IMG/VR virus record: IMGVR_UViG_3300046163_000002
Location: 1 to 30,516 of that record
Origin: a virus
DNA: 30,516 bases
Strand: one strand, 5' to 3'
Shown piece by piece: positions 635 through 26,812 of the stretch. The notes under the pieces were generated by a model. That model was not told where the DNA came from. It saw only the letters and a list, made by a program, of their open reading frames with translations, and ran no database searches. The translations under genes were made by a program, and so were the position numbers. The number at the start of each line of letters is the position of its first letter. Position 1 is the stretch's first letter.

Positions 635-767
635 TTATTTATTACAATTATTACATTTATCACTTAATTCTTTAACAGCTTCAATTAATAATCCAATTAA
701 GACCATTATAATCTACTGCTTTAAAGCCATCCTCAGTTTTTTAAGGCTATCAACTTCTCTTACAAGT
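635..767 (-). pseudogene. Frame-broken end of the S74 chaperone domain of the fibre
   Basis: The fibre frame stops at 768, but the bases below it still encode the expected rest of an S74-type chaperone in shifting frames. Removing one A from the run 779-782, adding one A to the run 737-742, and removing one base near 693-704 restores V-M-P-E-L-V-R-E-V-D, then D-G-F-K-A-V-D-Y-N-G-L, then I-G-L-L-I-E-A-V-K-E-L and a stop at 635-637. In S74 chaperones the helix with 'NGL..LLIEAVKEL' packs and cuts the fibre trimer. Three indels in about 100 bases, two of them in A-runs, suggest base-calling error near a contig end; real decay is the alternative. Confidence 0.75.
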
Positions 768-3485
768 TCAGGCATTACTTTTCTCTAGCTCTTGTGCTAT
801 AATACCACCTGATCTTTTATCATCTCTGTCAATCCAGTCAAATGTTACACCCCTTAACTGGTCTAACTTTTCTAATGGATTCTCAATTACTTTAACATTT
901 TCTTTTAATCTTTCATCAGAAGGTGTTGTTGTTGAGTATGCAATCACATCTCCATCAGCATGGAAATCTCCATCAGCTTCAAATCTAAATTTATGTACAT
1001 TATTAATAAACATGTCTACATGTGTATTGTCTACAAACTGTAGATAATCTGTAGAATCTAAACCAATATACTCTACTGCTCTAAGATCTGATGCAACTTT
1101 GTCTGCTGTAACTGAGTCATTAGCCAGTTTTGCAGTTGTAATGTTTGCATCAAGAATTTTTGCAGTTGTAATATTATCATCTAATATTTTAGCTGTTGTA
1201 ATATTGTTATCAGCTATTTTAGCAGTTGTTATATTTGCATCAAGTATCTTAGCTGTAGTTACTGCATCATTTGCAATGGTTAATGCAGTTGCACCAGTAA
1301 CATCACCAGTATGTGTTTGATTATAAAGATTAGTAGTTCCTTGTGAAAGGTCATCTGTATCAGCAGCTGCTAATTTAGTATCAAAGTTACTATTTGCTCT
1401 AGCTGTAGTAAAATAAAGATTGGAACTTCCTTCTGTTAAAACATCTGTTGTTGAGTTAGTCTCATCTATTAACTTAATCCAGTTACCTGCATGTGCAAAA
1501 TATCCTTTTCCTGTTCCATGTACATGAGAGAACATACCATGATAAGTTGATGCACTTGGCAAATCACCTTCTGTTGCAAACATGTTAGCATAATAAATCT
1601 TCCCAGTTGTTGTAATGTTATAAGACTGAGCATCTAAATTGCCTCCTAGTTGTGGTGTAGTATCTTCTACAACATTGTTAATACTTACTGCTTGTACTCT
1701 AGCATCAGTATAATAAAGATTTGTGTTCTCTGTTATTGCTGATGTGTTTAAAGTTATGTCTGCTGTACCATCAAATGCAACTCCTGATATATTTCTAGAT
1801 GTTGCAAGAGCTGTTGCAGTTGCAGCATTACCTGTAGTAGATCCTGATGAACCACTTACATTTCCTGTTACATTACCTGTTACATCTCCCACTAAATTAC
1901 CTGTAATATTTCCACTAGCTCCTATAGTACCTACTGAGATATTAGGTGTACCAGTTAAGTTTGCTGCTGTAGTTGCTGCAATACCTAATCCATCTACATA
2001 AGACTTAGTAATGTGTGCTTGTACTTCTGATTGGCTAGGACCTGTGTATGTAAAGGCTCCACTAGTATTATCATAACTAAATGAACCATCACCTCCTGCA
2101 TCAACAGCACTAAAATCTGCTAATCCAATACCACTTTGTGTAGATGCAATAGTCAATGTACCTGCTCCATCATTATAAGTAAGTCCTATACCTGCTCCTG
2201 CTGTTAATAGTGTATTAACTTGATCATCTGTTCTCTCTGCTGTCCAATAAACATTTGTAGATCCCTCAGGTAAATCATCTGTATTAACTTGATTTGCTCC
2301 TGTTCCAAAGTCTATTAGTGTATCATCTATAGAATCTGCTGCTAAACTTACAGCTCCACTAGCTACACTAAAATGTGATGATGAGAAACTAGCAACCCCT
2401 TTTGCACTTGTAGATGCATCTGTTCCTGCAATAACAAAGTTAGGATAAGTACCTGATGCACTTACTCCAGTAGCACTTGTTGCAGTAATAGCAACTGTTT
2501 GGTCAGGTGATGAGTTGGTAATTGTCAATGTATTAGCTACATCATCATAGGCTTTTGTTATGCCTGTCCCTGCAACTACTAAACTAGCAACTCTGTCATC
2601 TACTCTCTCATCTGTAAAATACTTGTTAGTACCTTCACTTAAATCTGATGTTGTTTTACTTGATAAATCTAAATTAGATCCTACTTGTAAAGCAATTCTT
2701 GCATCCACCCTTGCATTGGTTAGATATAAATTGGTTCCTTCAGAAAGATCAGATGTTGATTTAGCTGCTAAAGCTGCATCAAATCTTGCCTGTGTGTAAT
2801 ACAAGTTGGATCCCTCTGTAATATTTGCTGTAGTTAATGAAATATCTGCACTTCCATCAAAAGCTACACCTGCAATATTTCTACTTGTTGCCAATGTTGT
2901 GGCTGTAGTAGCATTACCAGTTAAAGCTCCAGTAAAAGTTGTTGCTGCAACAGAAGTTAATCCACTAATATTAGGATTTAATGCTATTGTTAAAGCATTT
3001 CCTGCTGATGTTGTTGTTATTTCATTACTTGTACCTGCTATTGTAAAGGTTTCTGTATCTAAATCTATAGATTGTGAACCTCCTGAATCACCTTGAAAGT
3101 CAAGATCACTTGCAGTTACCTGTGCATCTACATATGCTTTTATACTTTGCTGAGTTGCTAAAGCTGTAGAGCTATTAGATGCCATGTTATCTTCATCTTT
3201 GAAGTCTGTTATTGTAATTGAACCATCAGATAATGATCCAAAAGTTAAAGTACCACTTACTGTTGAGTTTCCTGAGATATTTCCACTCAGGTCTCCAACA
3301 AATGAATTACCTGTTATAGTACCTGTTGCTGTTAAATCTCCTGCATTATTAAGACTTACCCCTGATGATGTCCCTAAACCATCAGAAATCACCTTTAAAG
3401 ATGAAGTAAGCCCATCATTATCTCCTACTTTTATAAGAGAATCATAACTGGATGCAATAGATATTCCTGTTAAACTACTTGCCAT
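768..3485 (-). CDS. Long trimeric tail fibre with C-terminal S74-type chaperone (frame broken at its end)
   Basis: 905 codons from ATG 3485 (MASSLTGISIASSYDSLIKV). The body is Ser/Thr/Ala/Gly-rich, with repeated units of the form E-G-(S/T)-N-L-Y-Y-T-x-A-R-x-D-A (about seven copies) and a block of 10-residue I-T-T-A-K-I-x-D repeats (residues about 740-800). Such repeats are typical of beta-structured trimeric fibres in marine T4-like and other phages. The last 50 residues start the intramolecular chaperone (S-D-E-R-L-K-E-N-V, then G-G-I-I-A-Q-E-L-E), which normally folds and then cleaves itself off; the rest is out of frame below 768. The product is the likely receptor-binding fibre. A nearly repeated segment (L-A-T-S-R-N-I-(A/S)-G-V-A-F-D-G) occurs twice. 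Confidence 0.85.
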   Translation of the reverse strand: MASSLTGISIASSYDSLIKVGDNDGLTSSLKVISDGLGTSSGVSLNNAGDLTATGTITGNSFVGDLSGNISGNSTVSGTLTFGSLSDGSITITDFKDEDNMASNSSTALATQQSIKAYVDAQVTASDLDFQGDSGGSQSIDLDTETFTIAGTSNEITTTSAGNALTIALNPNISGLTSVAATTFTGALTGNATTATTLATSRNIAGVAFDGSADISLTTANITEGSNLYYTQARFDAALAAKSTSDLSEGTNLYLTNARVDARIALQVGSNLDLSSKTTSDLSEGTNKYFTDERVDDRVASLVVAGTGITKAYDDVANTLTITNSSPDQTVAITATSATGVSASGTYPNFVIAGTDASTSAKGVASFSSSHFSVASGAVSLAADSIDDTLIDFGTGANQVNTDDLPEGSTNVYWTAERTDDQVNTLLTAGAGIGLTYNDGAGTLTIASTQSGIGLADFSAVDAGGDGSFSYDNTSGAFTYTGPSQSEVQAHITKSYVDGLGIAATTAANLTGTPNISVGTIGASGNITGNLVGDVTGNVTGNVSGSSGSTTGNAATATALATSRNISGVAFDGTADITLNTSAITENTNLYYTDARVQAVSINNVVEDTTPQLGGNLDAQSYNITTTGKIYYANMFATEGDLPSASTYHGMFSHVHGTGKGYFAHAGNWIKLIDETNSTTDVLTEGSSNLYFTTARANSNFDTKLAAADTDDLSQGTTNLYNQTHTGDVTGATALTIANDAVTTAKILDANITTAKIADNNITTAKILDDNITTAKILDANITTAKLANDSVTADKVASDLRAVEYIGLDSTDYLQFVDNTHVDMFINNVHKFRFEADGDFHADGDVIAYSTTTPSDERLKENVKVIENPLEKLDQLRGVTFDWIDRDDKRSGGIIAQELEKSNA
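1092..1275 (-). repeat. Tandem 30-bp repeats encoding I-T-T-A-K-I-x-D-x-N
   Basis: Within the fibre gene five to six consecutive 30-bp units each encode a 10-residue motif (V/I-T-T-A-K-I-L-D-A-N and variants such as I-A-D-N-N and L-A-N-D-S). The units differ at synonymous positions, so they are an old protein-level repeat and not a fresh slippage tract. They probably form one stretch of regular beta structure near the chaperone. Copy number could vary between relatives. Confidence 0.8.
1305..2825 (-). repeat. Dispersed fibre repeats, E-G-T-N-L-Y-Y-T-x-A-R type
   Basis: About seven copies of the motif (S/T)-(D)-L-(S/T/P)-E-G-(S/T)-N-L-Y-(Y/F/L)-T-x-A-R-x-(D/N) are spread through the fibre, at roughly 1305-1360, 1385-1445, 1680-1740, 2215-2275, 2590-2645, 2690-2750 and 2770-2825. 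A longer unit, containing A-T-x-L-A-T-S-R-N-I plus the following E-x-(S/T)-N-L-Y-Y-T motif, is present twice (about 1690-1840 and 2780-2930). These make the fibre modular and a likely site of recombination between phages. Confidence 0.75.
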
Positions 3486-12030: not shown

Positions 12031-12044
12031 ACTATTTATATAAT
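12031..12044 (-). promoter_or_regulatory. ATTATATAAATAGT element before the 49-aa / tape measure pair
   Basis: Same core as the other four elements, with three extra bases between the core and ATG. It starts a new translation unit after the prolyl hydroxylase. Confidence 0.4.
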
Positions 12045-12650
12045 ACTTAATTGATTACTTTTTAACTTTTTTTGATATTCTTTATTATCACCTGTAGGAT
12101 CCCACACATTTTCTCTCCACCATGATGTTATAATGTATTTTGTGCCATTTGTTACATCTTCTCCACTATGTTGCATGTATTCATTTGGATAACCATGTTG
12201 CAAGTTGTTCCAAACTACACCTTTACATGCTTTTGGTTTTATTATCTTTTTAAGATGTGGAAAATTTGTAGTACCTCCTTCAAAATTGTCATTTAGATAC
12301 AACATAAATGTGTATGTTCTGTTACCTGATGATAGACAATTCTTATCATAATGCTCACCACTAAAATAATCTACATGTCCTCTAAAAAATTGACCAACTT
12401 CATACCTCTGTCCTTGTAGTGATTCTCCTTTTTTAAGATTTACTCCTAAATATTTAGCTATTTTCTTATGTAAAGATTCTACAGTAGGATCATTAGCAAT
12501 TAAATTTGATGTGCTAGATGTTCTTTGACTACTATATGTGTTCATTGTATTTCCTGATCCTACAACCATAGATTTAGTTGCACTATTATCAATCATCCTA
12601 ATAAGATACTTTGATTCTTCTATTGATATAAAGTTTTCTATTTCTTTCAT
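12036..12650 (-). CDS. Prolyl 4-hydroxylase family Fe(II)/2-oxoglutarate dioxygenase, 204 aa
   Basis: Family enzymes hydroxylate proline (or other) side chains using O2, Fe(II) and 2-oxoglutarate. The sequence shows the P4H core: R-Y-E-V-G-Q-F-F-R-G-H92-V-D94-Y-F, then T-F-M-L-Y-L-N-D-N-F-E-G-G-T-T-N-F-P, then M-Q-H161-S-G-E-D-V-T-N-G-T-K171-Y. H92, D94 and H161 are the iron ligands and K171 the likely 2-oxoglutarate anchor; all are present. I chose the ATG at 12650 because its A is shared with the TAA of the giant tail protein (TAATG); an ATG nine bases upstream would overlap further. The immediate neighbour has P6 and P10 tracts, so that protein is an obvious candidate substrate (inference). 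Confidence 0.9.
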   Translation of the reverse strand: MKEIENFISIEESKYLIRMIDNSATKSMVVGSGNTMNTYSSQRTSSTSNLIANDPTVESLHKKIAKYLGVNLKKGESLQGQRYEVGQFFRGHVDYFSGEHYDKNCLSSGNRTYTFMLYLNDNFEGGTTNFPHLKKIIKPKACKGVVWNNLQHGYPNEYMQHSGEDVTNGTKYIITSWWRENVWDPTGDNKEYQKKLKSNQLSII

Positions 12651-15600
12651 TATGGACATTGTGGTGTGTATGGACCTGCAAGTGTGCTACCATTCCAATA
12701 CCAGTAACTTGAACCTGCTACATCTGTAACATATTGTGGATTTGTTTGTAAAGATGAACAATCTGTGTTAATATATATTTTAGATGCTGCCTGTATAGTT
12801 GCTGCATCAAGATTCATTGTTCTTTGTTGTGTTTGATTACATAAATCAATAGCTGATATTGCACTTTTATATAATGGCACTTGAAAACAAGTCTGTGCAG
12901 GAGGTGGAGGAGGTGGAGGAGGAGGTGGTGCTTGGTTTTGACAGTCTAAACAGTTAGCTCCTGCTGTATTGTTTGTTGTAAAAAAGTTAAAGTTTTGACT
13001 ATTTAACTCTATTGGATTTGTTCCTTGTGTATTACTATCCCATCTGTAACACTCAAACTGACCTACTTCACTTATTACCCACCATGTGCTTATCTGAGAG
13101 CTACTATATACATCTAACAGTAATGTTTGATCAATACAAGATACAAATCTTGCATAACTTGTTGTAGCAGGTGGTGGTGGTGGAGGTATTACTGGTGTTA
13201 TACAATTTGTTGTATTTGTATCTGCTACTACACCTATCTGTATTCCTGTATTTATTCCTGATACTCCTGCCACTTGATACTTAGGACCACTTGTGCCTCC
13301 AAGACCAACTACAGCTCCAACTGCAAAGGTAACATCAGAAGTTTGTTGAAGTGATAAATATCCAGTTGTAGAATCACTACATCTTTGTAGGTTATAAAAT
13401 GTTGATGATCCTGTTATAGAAGGACATCCACTAGCACCTAGATCTGTTACTGTTCCCACATTTGCAAATCCTCCTCCTGAAACACCTACAGATGTAACTG
13501 TATAAGGCATACCATTAGGATCAGAAACTCTATCATTAACACTCAATGATATTTCTGTAATACTATTACCTGATCTGTAACCTGTTTGTAAAGTATAACA
13601 TTGTTTTAATTCATAAAAAGTAGGACATGCTGTTTCTGTACTTGTAACAACTGTACCTACTGATGTTCCACTAGTTGTTGTGCCTAACACTTTATACAGA
13701 GGTCCTGATGTACTACCACTATGTACAAAGTCCCCTGTGCTTAAACTAATCTGTGTTGTTGTTTGACCTGTTATATAACTAGTATTTCCTGTGCTACATT
13801 GTTCTAACTGATAATATAAAACAGTACCACAAGGTGTACTTGGACATCCTAATGATCCTAAACTTGTAACCTGACCTATTTGTGTTGTATATAAACTTGG
13901 ATCTGTTGTTGTAGCATTTACTGTATAACATTTACCACTACTATTGTCTTGTACTAATGATGCATTTGAAGGTGTACTGCTAATAGTCAGATTTGGTATG
14001 TCTGTAGTTGTAGTTGTTGTTACAACTATGGATGCTGTTTGACAATCTCTTAATAAGTAGTAAGTAGTTACTGGATTAGAACAAGTACAAGAACTAAGGC
14101 TGTCAAGATTAATTGATCCTGTTTGATTATTTGTAGTTTGTATTGAGTAACAAGTCCCACTATAAGTAAGCTGTGTATTGTTTAAATTAGAACAATTACT
14201 TGTACCATAATGTTGTATAGATCCATCTGTACAACTATTTAAAGAATAATAATATGTAGTACATGATCCAGTAGATAAACTGTCTATATCAATAGTTCCT
14301 GAAACTGATGAAGGTGATATAACATAAGTTTGATTGTTGTACACTCTTGTTCCTGATAATGAGTTGTTTGCACTAAAACCTATATATGTAGTTCCACTAC
14401 AACATGGATTAAGCTGATAATAAAAAGTAGTTGTTTGATTACCTGAACATGTTAGTTGAGCAGGACTAGGAGTTGATGCTATTGTAACACTAGGTACTGT
14501 ATCTGCTGTTGATGCATTTTCAACTATATATTTTACACTACTTGAATCAAACACTTGTTGTGTTATTGCATATGTTGGACTACCTACTGCTGTTGATGTT
14601 CTTAAATTAGTTGCATTATCACTACATCTTTTTAGACCATAATAGTTTGTTGGTGGTGGAGTTGTACTTGCAGGACAACCTGTTAAATTCATAGATGTTA
14701 CAGTTTTAGATGTGTGTGTGTTTGGCACATTGTTACCTGTAACTTTGTAAGTGTTTCCTGATGCATCTTGGACTCTTGTGTTAATTGCTAAATTCAAAGT
14801 TGCTAATGTACTAGAAGATTCAAATGTACTATTTGGACTATCACATTGATATAGTGTTAAAACATTTGTATCAGGTACTCCAGTCTGTCCCCCTGTACCC
14901 CCAGTATCACCTTGTGTAATTGTAGCATCATTTACTGTTTCATTTAATAATTCTATTCTACTACTGCCTGTTAATAAGTCTGTAGTTATGCTGTTTATTT
15001 TATATCTGTCTTGATTTATTATAACAGTATCAGCAAGTGTATAATTTATTACAAACTTTTTTGGAAGTCTTGCTGTTATAGTTGTAAGTCTTTTTGCTGA
15101 ATTAAATATTCCTGATATATAAAATCTATGATATTTGTCAAATAAAGTTTCTGTAAAAGCTGATGTTCTATCCCATTCTGATAGTTCCAAATCAAAATGA
15201 ATACTTTCCTTGCTTACTGTTGAATCTCTTTCTGCTGTATTAGATGGCATCCAATATTGTGTAATGTCTACTATTTCTCCTATTGTTGATGTTCCACTTA
15301 ATGTTCTAATAGAATTACCTGTTGGTAATGTAACAAAGTCCCCAATAAATACAACTGGATTTTTAAAAAATGGTTCATTTTTTTCATTTGCTAAGAATCC
15401 CCATTGAATATCTGTATTTGTACCATTGATTCTTTCATATTTCATGTGTGCAAAAGGCACTTCTATTTCAAACTTGTTATTATTACTATCAAGATCACCT
15501 GTTTCTACATACTTAGCTGCACCCCATTCTACTCCTTGTGATTCAAAATGCTGTTTTGCAAGTGTTGTTTCTGTTCCTTTATACCTAAATTCTATCTCTC

Positions 15601-17026
15601 TATATGGTAATGCTTTATTTATTTGTACAGATTGAGGATCAACATACTTAGTTATATCTCTTAATGTACCTGCATTATAAAAACTCTCTAATGTTTTTAC
15701 ATGTATAATCCCATCTTTAACAAAAGCTGTTAAATTAAACATTGAAAACAGCCCAGTTAAGAAATCTATTACTTTAATATTTGGCAAATGCTGTTGTACT
15801 ACAAACTCTTTTTCTACAGCTATAGCAACAGGACTTGTTGTCTGTGATGTTAATTGATTACCATTAGGTGTAGTACCTTCAAATGTAACAGCAACATCAA
15901 AAGCAGATGTAGTTTCTATTGTTAATGTATATCCTTGACTAGTGTTTGTAATTTGTTGTGAAACTACTGCTATTGTATTAGTACCTCCTGTGAATTCTTT
16001 TCTCAGTACTTCTTCATTCCCCTCTCTTAATACAGCTGTGAATGTTGGATATGCTTGTCCTGAATCTAATGTCCATCTTCCTGTTACTGATTGACTTGGA
16101 TTTAAATTAAATATTCTAACTGCTGATCCTGATACTGCTATATTTAAATTTGCAGCTGTTGCAAATCCATCTATTAGTTTTTCACCTACACCCATGTTTT
16201 CAAACACTCTACCTTCTTTCTTTTGACACAACATATACAACTTTTTATATGTATCAGGTCCATTTGTTAGATCTAAGAAATCATCACTAAATGTTAATTC
16301 AGAATATTGTTCTTGTATAGCTTTTACTATTAGATGCATTTTAATTGCATATGTTAAATCTTCATATAACACTCCATGTATATCATCAGTTGTTGGTGAG
16401 TTACCACCTGTAGGATTTAGATTACCACCTAATGCTGAGTTGATAGTACCATCTGCATTGTTATAAGGTATTCTGTTATTGTTGTAATAAAATCTTTGTG
16501 TGTTAGATATTAATGGAACAATAAGAGCTGCACTATATGGTACAGAATCTACTGTTTTAGAAAACCCTGTAGATGTTGTCATGACAGTATTTATTTCATT
16601 TGCAGAATATGTAGTGTTAAAATTAGATAGCCATGTTAATCCACTTATTTGATCATCTCCTAATACATCTTTTAAGTTTACTGTGTTACCATAAAAAGTA
16701 ACCTTGTATGCTTTAGGTTTACCATTTTCAGTTTCTACACCTTCTAGTGCAATCTTACCTTCTTTATATGGTATTGTGTTTAGCTCTATTTTTGCATCTA
16801 TCTTTTTTCTTGCATCAAATGTATAGCCTTGTACTAAATTAAATTTGTAGTAATGTTTAAAGATTTTATTGTTTGTATCACTAGCAGGAAGTGTAAAAGG
16901 TTTTGTAAAATCTGTGAATACTTTAGAGACATCTCTAACATCTTGGATGGTTTCTGTAAGGCTTACATTCTCATCTTTAAATAACTCTACTCTTTGATTG
17001 TTTATATATAACTGAAATTTGCTCAT
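12650..17026 (-). CDS. Giant tail / host-recognition protein with Cys repeats and polyproline, 1458 aa
   Basis: Residues 1-700 look like a tail-tip or baseplate-hub protein (MSKFQLYINNQRVELFKDEN, then F-T-D-F-T-K-P-F-T-L-P-A-S, as in many flavobacterial phages by recollection). Residues about 720-1300 hold eight to nine modules of 55-80 residues. Each opens with a Y-Y-x-L-x-x-C type motif (K-R-C, N-P-C, N-S-C, R-D-C, E-Q-C, K-Q-C, Q-R-C) and closes with a second Cys, often C-P. Six prolines at residues 1281-1286 and ten at 1367-1376 act as rigid spacers before the last two domains. The likely role is cell-surface contact. Both gene ends use TAATG overlaps, so it is co-translated with its neighbours. 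Confidence 0.75.
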   Translation of the reverse strand: MSKFQLYINNQRVELFKDENVSLTETIQDVRDVSKVFTDFTKPFTLPASDTNNKIFKHYYKFNLVQGYTFDARKKIDAKIELNTIPYKEGKIALEGVETENGKPKAYKVTFYGNTVNLKDVLGDDQISGLTWLSNFNTTYSANEINTVMTTSTGFSKTVDSVPYSAALIVPLISNTQRFYYNNNRIPYNNADGTINSALGGNLNPTGGNSPTTDDIHGVLYEDLTYAIKMHLIVKAIQEQYSELTFSDDFLDLTNGPDTYKKLYMLCQKKEGRVFENMGVGEKLIDGFATAANLNIAVSGSAVRIFNLNPSQSVTGRWTLDSGQAYPTFTAVLREGNEEVLRKEFTGGTNTIAVVSQQITNTSQGYTLTIETTSAFDVAVTFEGTTPNGNQLTSQTTSPVAIAVEKEFVVQQHLPNIKVIDFLTGLFSMFNLTAFVKDGIIHVKTLESFYNAGTLRDITKYVDPQSVQINKALPYREIEFRYKGTETTLAKQHFESQGVEWGAAKYVETGDLDSNNNKFEIEVPFAHMKYERINGTNTDIQWGFLANEKNEPFFKNPVVFIGDFVTLPTGNSIRTLSGTSTIGEIVDITQYWMPSNTAERDSTVSKESIHFDLELSEWDRTSAFTETLFDKYHRFYISGIFNSAKRLTTITARLPKKFVINYTLADTVIINQDRYKINSITTDLLTGSSRIELLNETVNDATITQGDTGGTGGQTGVPDTNVLTLYQCDSPNSTFESSSTLATLNLAINTRVQDASGNTYKVTGNNVPNTHTSKTVTSMNLTGCPASTTPPPTNYYGLKRCSDNATNLRTSTAVGSPTYAITQQVFDSSSVKYIVENASTADTVPSVTIASTPSPAQLTCSGNQTTTFYYQLNPCCSGTTYIGFSANNSLSGTRVYNNQTYVISPSSVSGTIDIDSLSTGSCTTYYYSLNSCTDGSIQHYGTSNCSNLNNTQLTYSGTCYSIQTTNNQTGSINLDSLSSCTCSNPVTTYYLLRDCQTASIVVTTTTTTDIPNLTISSTPSNASLVQDNSSGKCYTVNATTTDPSLYTTQIGQVTSLGSLGCPSTPCGTVLYYQLEQCSTGNTSYITGQTTTQISLSTGDFVHSGSTSGPLYKVLGTTTSGTSVGTVVTSTETACPTFYELKQCYTLQTGYRSGNSITEISLSVNDRVSDPNGMPYTVTSVGVSGGGFANVGTVTDLGASGCPSITGSSTFYNLQRCSDSTTGYLSLQQTSDVTFAVGAVVGLGGTSGPKYQVAGVSGINTGIQIGVVADTNTTNCITPVIPPPPPPATTSYARFVSCIDQTLLLDVYSSSQISTWWVISEVGQFECYRWDSNTQGTNPIELNSQNFNFFTTNNTAGANCLDCQNQAPPPPPPPPPPAQTCFQVPLYKSAISAIDLCNQTQQRTMNLDAATIQAASKIYINTDCSSLQTNPQYVTDVAGSSYWYWNGSTLAGPYTPQCP
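13135..14870 (-). repeat. Cys-containing modules of the giant tail protein
   Basis: Motif starts fall near 14840-14870, 14625-14650, 14395-14430, 14230-14260, 14040-14062, 13797-13822, 13600-13625, 13381-13405 and 13135-13155. Modules share aromatic-aromatic-x-L-x-x-C, then a Ser/Thr-rich beta stretch with (Y/K)-x-V-x-(G/S), then V-G-x-V and a closing Cys. DNA identity is low, so the repeats are ancient. Each probably forms a small domain fixed by a disulfide. Confidence 0.7.
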
Positions 17027-25449: not shown

Positions 25450-25928
25450 AATCCCATTTTTTTCTTTAACATCTTCTTTACATTTCTATAAGTATTGTAT
25501 AGACTTATATATGTAATTGTTGTCTTTCTACTAAGCACAGAAATTTTAGTTCCTGATGCAATTATTTCAAAGACTTTTTGATCATACCAATGCAGCTTGT
25601 CAAACTCATCATTAAACTTTTTTTCTAGTACAGCATATTCAACTTCCATAGGTCCTTCTATATGTTTTAATACATCTTCATCTACAAACCTAACTCTACT
25701 TTGTTTCTTTTTTAATTGCAAAAACATTGTGTAGAGTATTTTAAAAATATAATAATAATTAATATCATCTTTACCATATGTAATGTCAGTTCCTTTTTCT
25801 GTTATGTCATGTAATTTTAAATACATTTCTGATACTATGTCTTTAGCTGTCTCATTATCCAATCCAAATGATCTACAAATGTTTAGCCAAGTCTTATGTT
25901 TTTGGTATGCTTTCTCCAGTATGTTCAT
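25446..25928 (-). CDS. Sigma-70-like / ECF-type transcription factor, 160 aa
   Basis: Residues about 10-85 look like sigma region 2 (W-L-N-I-C-R-S-F-G-L-D-N-E-T-A-K-D-I-V-S-E-M-Y-L-K-L), and about 115-155 like region 4 with an HTH (Y-D-Q-K-V-F-E-I-I-A-S-G-T-K-I-S-V-L-S-R-K-T). Flavobacterial phages often carry such a gene in the replication operon. Known sigma factors steer RNA polymerase to other promoters, so this one could drive late genes. DNA target unknown; the ATTATATAA elements are one candidate. Overlaps the helicase end by 35 bases. Confidence 0.65.
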   Translation of the reverse strand: MNILEKAYQKHKTWLNICRSFGLDNETAKDIVSEMYLKLHDITEKGTDITYGKDDINYYYIFKILYTMFLQLKKKQSRVRFVDEDVLKHIEGPMEVEYAVLEKKFNDEFDKLHWYDQKVFEIIASGTKISVLSRKTTITYISLYNTYRNVKKMLKKKMGL

Positions 25929-26553
25929 CTATCATTCTTATCATGTCCTCTCCTTCTATACTATAACCAACATTATTTATTACTGATCTCATCTTGATTG
26001 GGCTTAAAAAACTGGTGGGCATACCCCCAGTACTAGTGTCTTTAATTTTTAAAACATGCATCTCTGTAATCATCCAGTCCAATGGATGTTGAACCATCCT
26101 ATGAATTGAGCAAAAAAAGTTAGGTCTATTTGAGAATTTGCCACCTCCTTCACAATCACTAAATTTTGGGCAAACTGGATAACCTGCATATTCATGATGA
26201 GCAGGGTGTACTTTTCTAAGTGCCTCTGTTACTGCATGAGTAGTAAGCCATAATGCTACTTTATGTTTATGGCAAAACAATCTGAACTCACTACAAACTG
26301 TGTAATCATATTCATGTCCACCTACACTTCTATACAACTCTCTGTCTTTAGCTAAGGAATTATATGGATCTATTAAAAAACCATTGTAATCCCATGACTT
26401 TTTTATCTCTGTTCCTAGATCAAGTAGAGTTTTATATGTCTGTATATCATCTATTGCTATAAATTTAAAATGTGAATCCACCCACTTACTTGCCTTCTCC
26501 AACTCCTCCTCATCAATTTTGTTAATGGGCAGACCACATTTAAACTCTATTAT
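25894..26553 (-). CDS. RecA-like helicase, C-terminal part (frame separated)
   Basis: Continues the helicase in the +1 frame: K-C-G-L-P-I-N-K-I-D-E-E-E-L, then F-I-A-I-D-D, Y-N-G-F-L-I-D-P-Y-N-S-L (Walker B-like), V-A-L-W-L-T-T-H-A-V-T-E-A (motif of RecA/DnaB sensors), C-E-G-G-G-K-F-S-N-R and I-H-R-M-V-Q-H-P. It has no credible start of its own (an internal TTG at 26502 is in the middle of a helix). The real gene spans 25894-26812. Confidence 0.8.
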   Translation of the reverse strand: MIEFKCGLPINKIDEEELEKASKWVDSHFKFIAIDDIQTYKTLLDLGTEIKKSWDYNGFLIDPYNSLAKDRELYRSVGGHEYDYTVCSEFRLFCHKHKVALWLTTHAVTEALRKVHPAHHEYAGYPVCPKFSDCEGGGKFSNRPNFFCSIHRMVQHPLDWMITEMHVLKIKDTSTGGMPTSFLSPIKMRSVINNVGYSIEGEDMIRMIDEHTGESIPKT

Positions 26554-26812
26554 TCTTTTTTATATTACTGTAAACTTCATTCTCACTACTATAACATAAC
26601 CATCTTAACCCATGTCTATATGAATATAAAAACATAAGATAAAAACAAAAGTGTGTTTTACCAACATTACTATGTCCTAAGAACACACCAAATTCTTCTT
26701 TAAATCTAAAATATGTATCAAATGATTTAATACCTAGAGCTAACCCCTCCTTGATTTCACCATTTCTGATTTTATGTATAAGATCAAGTTGGGATTTAAT
26801 GTCTAGTATCAT
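26540..26812 (-). CDS. RecA-like helicase, N-terminal part with Walker A
   Basis: ATG at 26812 (MILDIKSQLDLIHKIRNG), then G-L-A-L-G-I-K-S-F-D and Walker A G-H-S-N-V-G-K-T, then L-R-W-L-C-Y-S-S-E-N-E. Homologues continue directly into a K-P-I-N-K-I-D segment. Here the frame ends after six A (26556-26561); with one A fewer the sequence reads N-I-K-R-I-I-E-F-K-C-G-L and joins the 25894-26553 part. Combined length is about 305 residues, normal for this flavobacterial phage helicase. It should act as replicative helicase or ATP-driven loader. Confidence 0.82.
   Translation of the reverse strand: MILDIKSQLDLIHKIRNGEIKEGLALGIKSFDTYFRFKEEFGVFLGHSNVGKTHFCFYLMFLYSYRHGLRWLCYSSENEVYSNIKKNNRV

Follow-up and report, generated by a model that had tools for sequence, protein, structure and literature searches.

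Does a bacteriophage hydroxylate prolines of its own tail? The question is raised by a locus in which the gene of a prolyl 4-hydroxylase (P4H) begins where the gene of a long protein with proline runs ends. The window, that is, the whole stretch of DNA analysed, is a single virus record of 30,516 bases, and the features of the locus are collected in Table 1. What was observed directly comprises the genes with their overlapping start, the catalytic residues, the fold predicted for the enzyme, and the fact that P4H and Pro linkers are present or missing together. The reading preferred here, with a probability of about 0.78, is that of a phage-encoded peptidyl P4H with coupled translation, whose main substrate would be the Pro linkers of the upstream tail protein; the hydroxylation itself is inferred.

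Table 1. Features of the P4H locus; all positions refer to the window.
Feature	Position	Strand	Basis
Prolyl 4-hydroxylase (P4H)	12036..12650	-	204 aa counted from conserved ATG
TAATG overlap, tail-gene stop and P4H start	12648..12652	-	sequence
1458-aa tail-region protein, proposed substrate	12650..17026	-	phrog_38559 E=4e-67, residues 5-726
N-terminal backbone, residues 1-700	14927..17026	-	common to P4H-less relatives
Cys-containing repeat array (YYxLxxC type), about residues 723-1276	13200..14860	-	protein sequence; kept in L204
P6 linker, residues 1281-1286, proposed hydroxylation target	13169..13186	-	protein sequence
P10 linker, residues 1367-1376, CxxC to next Cys, proposed hydroxylation target	12899..12928	-	sequence
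Next gene downstream, tape-measure-like, 557 aa	10208..11881	-	phrog_32985
Fe(II) ligand His, H92 (H95 from 12659)	12375..12377	-	invariant in 21-row alignment; matches P4H HxD
Fe(II) ligand Asp, D94 (D97 from 12659)	12369..12371	-	21-row alignment, P4H structures
Fe(II) ligand His, H161 (H164 from 12659)	12168..12170	-	21-row alignment, P4H structures
2-oxoglutarate-binding Lys, K171 (K174 from 12659)	12138..12140	-	21-row alignment, P4H structures

The hydroxylase and the tail gene upstream

On the minus strand, the longest P4H ORF runs from an ATG at 12659, upstream of the start given in Table 1, to 12036. Relatives retain the ATG at 12650 within CCATAATG and in many of them the upstream ATG is replaced by TTG or CTG, so the start at 12650 is the better choice. 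Base 12650 is common to the stop TAA of the tail gene (12650-12652) and to the P4H ATG (12648-12650), and the TAATG overlap is retained in close relatives with P0002-like tail genes. The sequence-only reading had described a complete P4H sharing one base with the stop of the tail protein, and it was right on both points.

The match of the enzyme to PF13640 has an E-value of 5.5e-13. A profile of 21 relatives searched against the PDB identified the P4H of Bacillus anthracis (BaP4H, E=5e-33), P4H-1 of Chlamydomonas (Cr-P4H-1, 4e-22), the P4H of PBCV-1 (5e-20) and also human C-P4H-II. The AF2 model of the window enzyme (pLDDT 83.7) presents the double-stranded beta-helix fold of the P4H kind and was matched by Foldseek to BaP4H (E 8e-15) and Cr-P4H-1 (4e-14), the best 31 matches being all P4H. 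The 21-row alignment of relatives shows no variation at H95, D97, H164 and K174 (numbered from 12659) or in an RTS segment, and in the HMMER alignments the four residues coincide with the conserved HxD, H and K of solved P4Hs, which bears out the active site H92/D94/H161/K171 proposed earlier. By every feature that can be computed from sequence and model the enzyme is a P4H; its activity on C4 of peptidyl proline is inferred.

The upstream protein is called a tail protein because its gene adjoins the tape-measure-like gene, a label that is itself a reading of the sequence. Apart from the position of the gene, the inference is based on an uncharacterised homologous gene in Nonlabens phage P12024, without virion data, and phrog_38559, which covers residues 5-726, is a family without known function. 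The homologue of this region, gp46 of P12024 (27% identity), stops at 750 aa without a Pro-rich stretch, and no P4H was identified beside it in the flank examined. Compared with gp46, the window protein has an extra Cys-containing repeat array and two Pro linkers. By analogy with P12024, the host of the window phage is probably a member of Flavobacteriia.

The two linkers P6 (1281-1286) and P10 (1367-1376) of the 1458-residue protein are present as had been described, and a P3 is found at residue 790. Pro runs of at least 6 appeared in 0 of 20,000 shuffles of the protein. In relatives, too, the stretch from CxxC to the next Cys is a Pro-rich linker of similar length, with scrambled CCA/CCT codons, which speaks for selection on the protein; in close relatives the length is constant and the Pro content goes from 5 to 11. 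Some close relatives have modest Pro linkers (L012, L015; PVQPPVRPP). A slippage artefact frozen in one contig was considered for P10 and ruled out, since the linker is kept in relatives with scrambled codons. A collagen-modifying P4H was also discarded: no Gly-X-Y repeat array was seen in the sequence of the window tail protein, whose linkers are poly-Pro, and the criterion of a Gly-X-Y substrate failed.

Elsewhere in the window, positions 640-3485 (minus strand) encode an S74-chaperone tail fibre of 905 aa that stops inside its C-terminal domain. The gene looks frameshifted, perhaps by a sequencing error near the contig end, and the missing part of the domain seems to lie in other frames. 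Positions 25894-26812 (minus strand) contain two ORFs of 202 and 90 aa which together seem to make up a single Walker-type ATPase, probably split by another frameshift; a similar start belongs to a single ORF of 299 aa in L206.

Distribution of the hydroxylase and of proline linkers

Viral contigs, many of them fragments, were scanned with P4H queries, and 170 usable P4H loci were grouped in 71 clusters at 90% identity. A Pro-rich neighbour was defined as a protein with at least 7 Pro in 20 aa located within three genes of the P4H, a threshold picked after the first loci had been inspected. L042-L048 (about 22-35% identity, without a Pro-rich neighbour) were excluded from the clusters as another subfamily. 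A Pro-rich neighbour was identified in 64 of the 71 clusters, against a background of 12 of 413 among ORFs located more than three genes from the P4H (Fisher p=5e-59, uncorrected for shared ancestry, which inflates such values). This survey, proposed in the sequence-only reading as a check of co-occurrence that P4H genes consistently without a proline-rich neighbour would refute, came out for the pairing. In the marine phage of the window and dozens of relatives the P4H is almost always beside a tail protein with Pro-rich linkers.

Most of the seven exceptions present weaker Pro linkers, Pro-containing repeats or a more distant Pro-rich protein. Linkers are present but shorter in L005 and L015, in L107 the protein near the P4H is an unrelated one that contains some 20 GGLxPS repeats, the Pro-rich protein of L144, L156 and L179 is further along or at the contig edge, and the contig of L145 is cut. 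When the Pro-rich neighbours were grouped by single-linkage, shared modules joined 80 of the 96; the comparison was therefore made on N-terminal backbones, and the pairing with P4H persists across tail proteins with dissimilar N-termini.

The more general idea that polyproline brings a P4H with it was rejected, as only one of 14 viral ORFs with P8 (eight prolines in the longest frame of the ORF) had an oxygenase, a distant one, in the fetched stretch that was checked. The scan of genome contigs gave no bacterial or prophage member of this P4H family. More distant phage oxygenases sit in other gene contexts, and the claim is therefore limited to this family and does not cover all phage 2OG oxygenases.

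For the family of the tail protein, 80 homologues of the backbone were collected, and complete ORFs with enough downstream sequence were counted. P4H and Pro linkers were identified together in 15 and neither in 48, Pro-rich stretches alone in 2 and P4H alone in 0; the 15 co-occurrences represent few events and not 15 independent ones. Both the clusters (64/71) and the tail family (15/0/2/48) support the suggested pairing of the enzyme with a polyproline substrate.

The tape-measure-like gene was used as synteny marker for the comparison with L204 (48% identity), which keeps the Cys repeats and has a similar tape-measure-like gene directly after the tail gene. L204 has CIDCQTTTGIGGPEPETPVQSSC at the place of the window CLDCQNQAPPPPPPPPPPAQTC; its P4H is absent at the syntenic site, and PF13640 is absent from the record, an incomplete contig. 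The two other combinations with the same backbone are L206 and L103. The former contains long (PT)n linkers without P4H, its next gene being a stand-alone second 2OG oxygenase domain (45-61% identity to the fused second domains described below, HxD and H conserved), followed by an HPAT-like glycosyltransferase gene. The latter has PTPP linkers, and its P4H, truncated where the contig stops, belongs to the fusion clade. These two cases suggest more than one origin of the pairing, the events being uncounted on a tree. L261 presents a Pro-rich tail protein without P4H.

Fusion-type relatives and their glycosyltransferases

In P4Hs that are more distant (about 48-57% identity), a second 2OG-oxygenase-like domain is fused to the first. 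The first domain of the fusion matches Cr-P4H-1 solved with (Ser-Pro)5 (Z 23.9, 1.9 A, 181 residues). No convincing sequence relative of the second, C-terminal domain was identified in the PDB; by fold it resembles the 2OG oxygenase 6n1f (Z 15.4, 3.2 A over 168 residues), the hits of that search belonging mostly to the first domain.

A glycosyltransferase homologue was identified close by in 41 of 42 fusion-type clusters and in none of the 28 clusters of the P4H-only type to which the window belongs. These counts were made by BLAST against a few representatives, and the P4H-only class was set by length, one of its 28 members (L103) being the cut fusion-clade gene. No Pfam glycosyltransferase was found among the window ORFs scanned, which were not all of them. 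The sequence-only reading had suggested that the tail may be decorated: glycosyltransferases do stand next to fusion-type P4Hs, but there are none near the window's own type, and decoration by a phage enzyme is consequently not shown for the window phage.

The families near fusion P4Hs comprise HPAT-like PF23452, PF11397 GlcNAc transferases, O-FucT and Gly_transf_sug (GT32-like), and NAD-dependent epimerase and carbamoyltransferase genes are also found in these clusters. PF23452 (HPAT) was matched by 5 of 13 HPAT-like members (best E 2.7e-7), the match of L102 being above the cut-off; the HPAT-like proteins have no PDB sequence relative at E 0.1 and no relative in INPHARED phages. PF11397 was identified in many fusion-type relatives with E down to 5.6e-75, the sugar and acceptor being uncharacterised for both families; that the phage PF11397 enzymes act on hydroxyproline (Hyp) is an inference. 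The cassette of P4H, oxygenase and glycosyltransferase was not found in cultured phages.

The linkers of the two types also differ. In P4H-only clusters, 147 of the 303 prolines of Pro-rich segments are in runs of four or more; the corresponding figure in fusion clusters is 37 of 2749, most prolines being single after T, A, V or S. Contiguous and alternating Hyp are distinguished in plant glycoproteins. The split in phage linker style resembles that distinction by analogy, as a correlation only.

Some further genes were observed in these loci. A radical SAM/SPASM gene is located directly after the fusion-type P4H at L170:9146-10054, a hint of further modification. In L113 and L163 the gene at +3 after the P4H is a GNAT-like acetyltransferase ORF of 136-138 aa (by eye only), which comes after GT32-like and Pro-rich genes. 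L145:10682-11335 has a weak match to sulfotransferase PF13469 (0.0036, below the cut-off), in a cluster that also contains O-FucT, PF11397 and carbamoyltransferase-like genes. The fusion P4Hs of L028, L033 and L037 match PHROG 2954 and 3531, annotated as 'ferrochelatase', through their second oxygenase domain, so that this annotation is probably wrong. The GGLxPS-repeat protein of L107 (710 aa, about 20 repeats) is encoded at L107:5411-7543, two genes ahead of the P4H, and possibly represents a different type of substrate.

Proposed substrate and comparison with known systems

In the proposed mechanism the P4H would be translated by coupling to the tail gene just upstream and, using Fe(II), O2 and 2-oxoglutarate, would hydroxylate prolines of the P6 and P10 linkers. 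These could then adopt a polyproline-II helix and give rigid spacing to the C-terminal Cys-rich tail modules, Hyp alone being the presumed end product in the window phage. The hydroxylation, the residues targeted, the stiffening, the receptor-binding role and any effect on the virion are all inferred. In more distant relatives, which have the fused second oxygenase and glycosyltransferases nearby, the Hyp residues would probably serve for sugar attachment, as in the Hyp-rich cell-wall glycoproteins of plants and algae; glycosylation of tails in fusion-type relatives is only somewhat more probable than not. A similar, somewhat better than even confidence is given to a wider reading, in which Hyp-rich glycosylated tails, an extensin- or mucin-like receptor-binding structure, would be widespread among uncultivated, mostly marine phages. 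The dedicated cassette would comprise the P4H, the fused second 2OG oxygenase, whose specificity is unassigned, Hyp-type glycosyltransferases and nucleotide-sugar epimerase or carbamoyltransferase genes, and the window phage would present a stripped-down, hydroxylation-only form with contiguous polyproline.

Other explanations share part of this evidence. The P4H might hydroxylate a host protein such as EF-Tu and be a moron merely placed in the tail operon, which is unlikely. As far as the titles of PDB entries 5v7y and 4iw3 indicate, EF-Tu is a binding partner and target of bacterial P4Hs in the nearest solved family, and other phage 2OG oxygenases are found among replication genes, for example in Erwinia, Salmonella and some cyanophages. 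However, an enzyme acting on the host should not track the Pro linkers of its neighbour, as observed in the 64 of 71 clusters, in L204 and in the tail family, and neither the conservation of the TAATG overlap nor the HPAT-like and PF11397 glycosyltransferases alongside would be expected of it.

Quite improbable is the explanation by inheritance alone, with receptor-binding C-termini, Pro linkers and P4H recombining together without being enzyme and substrate. L204 retains the Cys modules and yet lacks both the polyPro and the P4H, the pairing is seen with different N-terminal backbones and with different oxygenases (L206, L103), and in L107 the P4H is near an unrelated protein; nevertheless, the C-terminal modules are homologous among many Pro-rich neighbours and the P4H could travel with them as a cassette. 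That the oxygenase has a small molecule as substrate, or acts on some residue that is not a linker proline, is hardly to be expected, given that the closest relatives by profile and fold are peptide prolyl hydroxylases and that the first domain of the fusions matches the (Ser-Pro)5 complex of Cr-P4H-1 (Z 23.9), even though the 2OG oxygenase superfamily is diverse in its substrates and sequence alone does not reveal the product. Hydroxylation of the tail linkers remains the preferred reading.

In a survey of Baltic Sea viruses (PMC9301287), P4H ranks with the abundant auxiliary genes found in the water column, and the authors state that its viral use 'remains cryptic'. The present results give a concrete substrate candidate for one large P4H family, tied to tail proteins and not to metabolism, and name gene clusters where the idea of tail hydroxylation can be tested. 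If it is true, some 'auxiliary metabolic' phage 2OG oxygenases would be better read as virion-modification enzymes.

The suggestion that this is a new system stands in part. No phage report was found in the literature on phage tail hydroxyproline, on prolyl hydroxylase with tail fibre or on viral HPAT, subscription journals being mostly outside coverage, but the kind of system has a precedent outside phages. Eriksson 1999, cited in PMC9301287, is reported to have described that Chlorella virus PBCV-1 encodes a P4H and Pro-rich repeat proteins as candidate substrates, and a viral P4H with its own Pro-rich substrate is thus precedented. The PBCV-1 P4H is not known to be translationally coupled to one tail protein. 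The PBCV-1 enzyme (vCPH; PDB 5C5T/5C5U) is virus-encoded like the window enzyme and agrees with it in fold and profile, whereas PBCV-1 is a eukaryotic algal virus and the window phage has a bacterial host and a phage tail gene product as substrate candidate. The closest solved relative by sequence, BaP4H (PDB 5HV0, 5IAX, 3ITQ; profile E 5e-33), is a bacterial chromosomal enzyme, an EF-Tu modifier according to the title of 5V7Y.

Among cyanophages, S-CAM7 contains a 2OG-Fe(II) oxygenase in its tail region near two collagen-like GPP proteins, a hint that collagen-like tail proteins may be the substrates of some cyanophage enzymes; these candidates are unlike the poly-Pro linkers of the window. 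The cultured Synechococcus phage S-SCSM1 (L265, 5262-18564) presents oxygenases, O-FucT, a carbamoyltransferase, epimerases, glycosyltransferases and a so-called ferrochelatase. This cluster resembles the cassette but has no clear tail linkage, not being next to long tail genes, and a GPPGP-coding run was looked for in S-SCSM1 and not found. Cyanophage oxygenases such as those of S-CAM7 and S-SCSM1 show low identity (33-38% in the matched part).

The extensin or Hyp-rich glycoprotein (HRGP) pathway of plants and algae, with P4H and HPAT, is likened to the phage loci by the fold match of the phage enzymes to Chlamydomonas P4H-1 with (Ser-Pro)5, by the HPAT-like gene after the P4H in phage relatives and by linkers of the PPPP, PTP and PSP type. 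That pathway is secretory, whereas the site of the phage version would be the bacterial cytoplasm and its substrates tail proteins, and, unlike it, the window phage has no recognised glycosyltransferase near its P4H. The Skp1 pathway of Dictyostelium, a P4H followed by a Hyp-GlcNAc transferase (GT60), resembles the order of P4H and then PF11397, a family that includes the Skp1 enzyme, in many fusion-type relatives; there a single proline of a ubiquitin ligase subunit is modified, and the phage candidates are long Pro-rich tail linkers. If the proposal is true, the use of hydroxyproline, and probably also of Hyp-linked glycans, would extend from plants, algae and Dictyostelium to bacteriophages.
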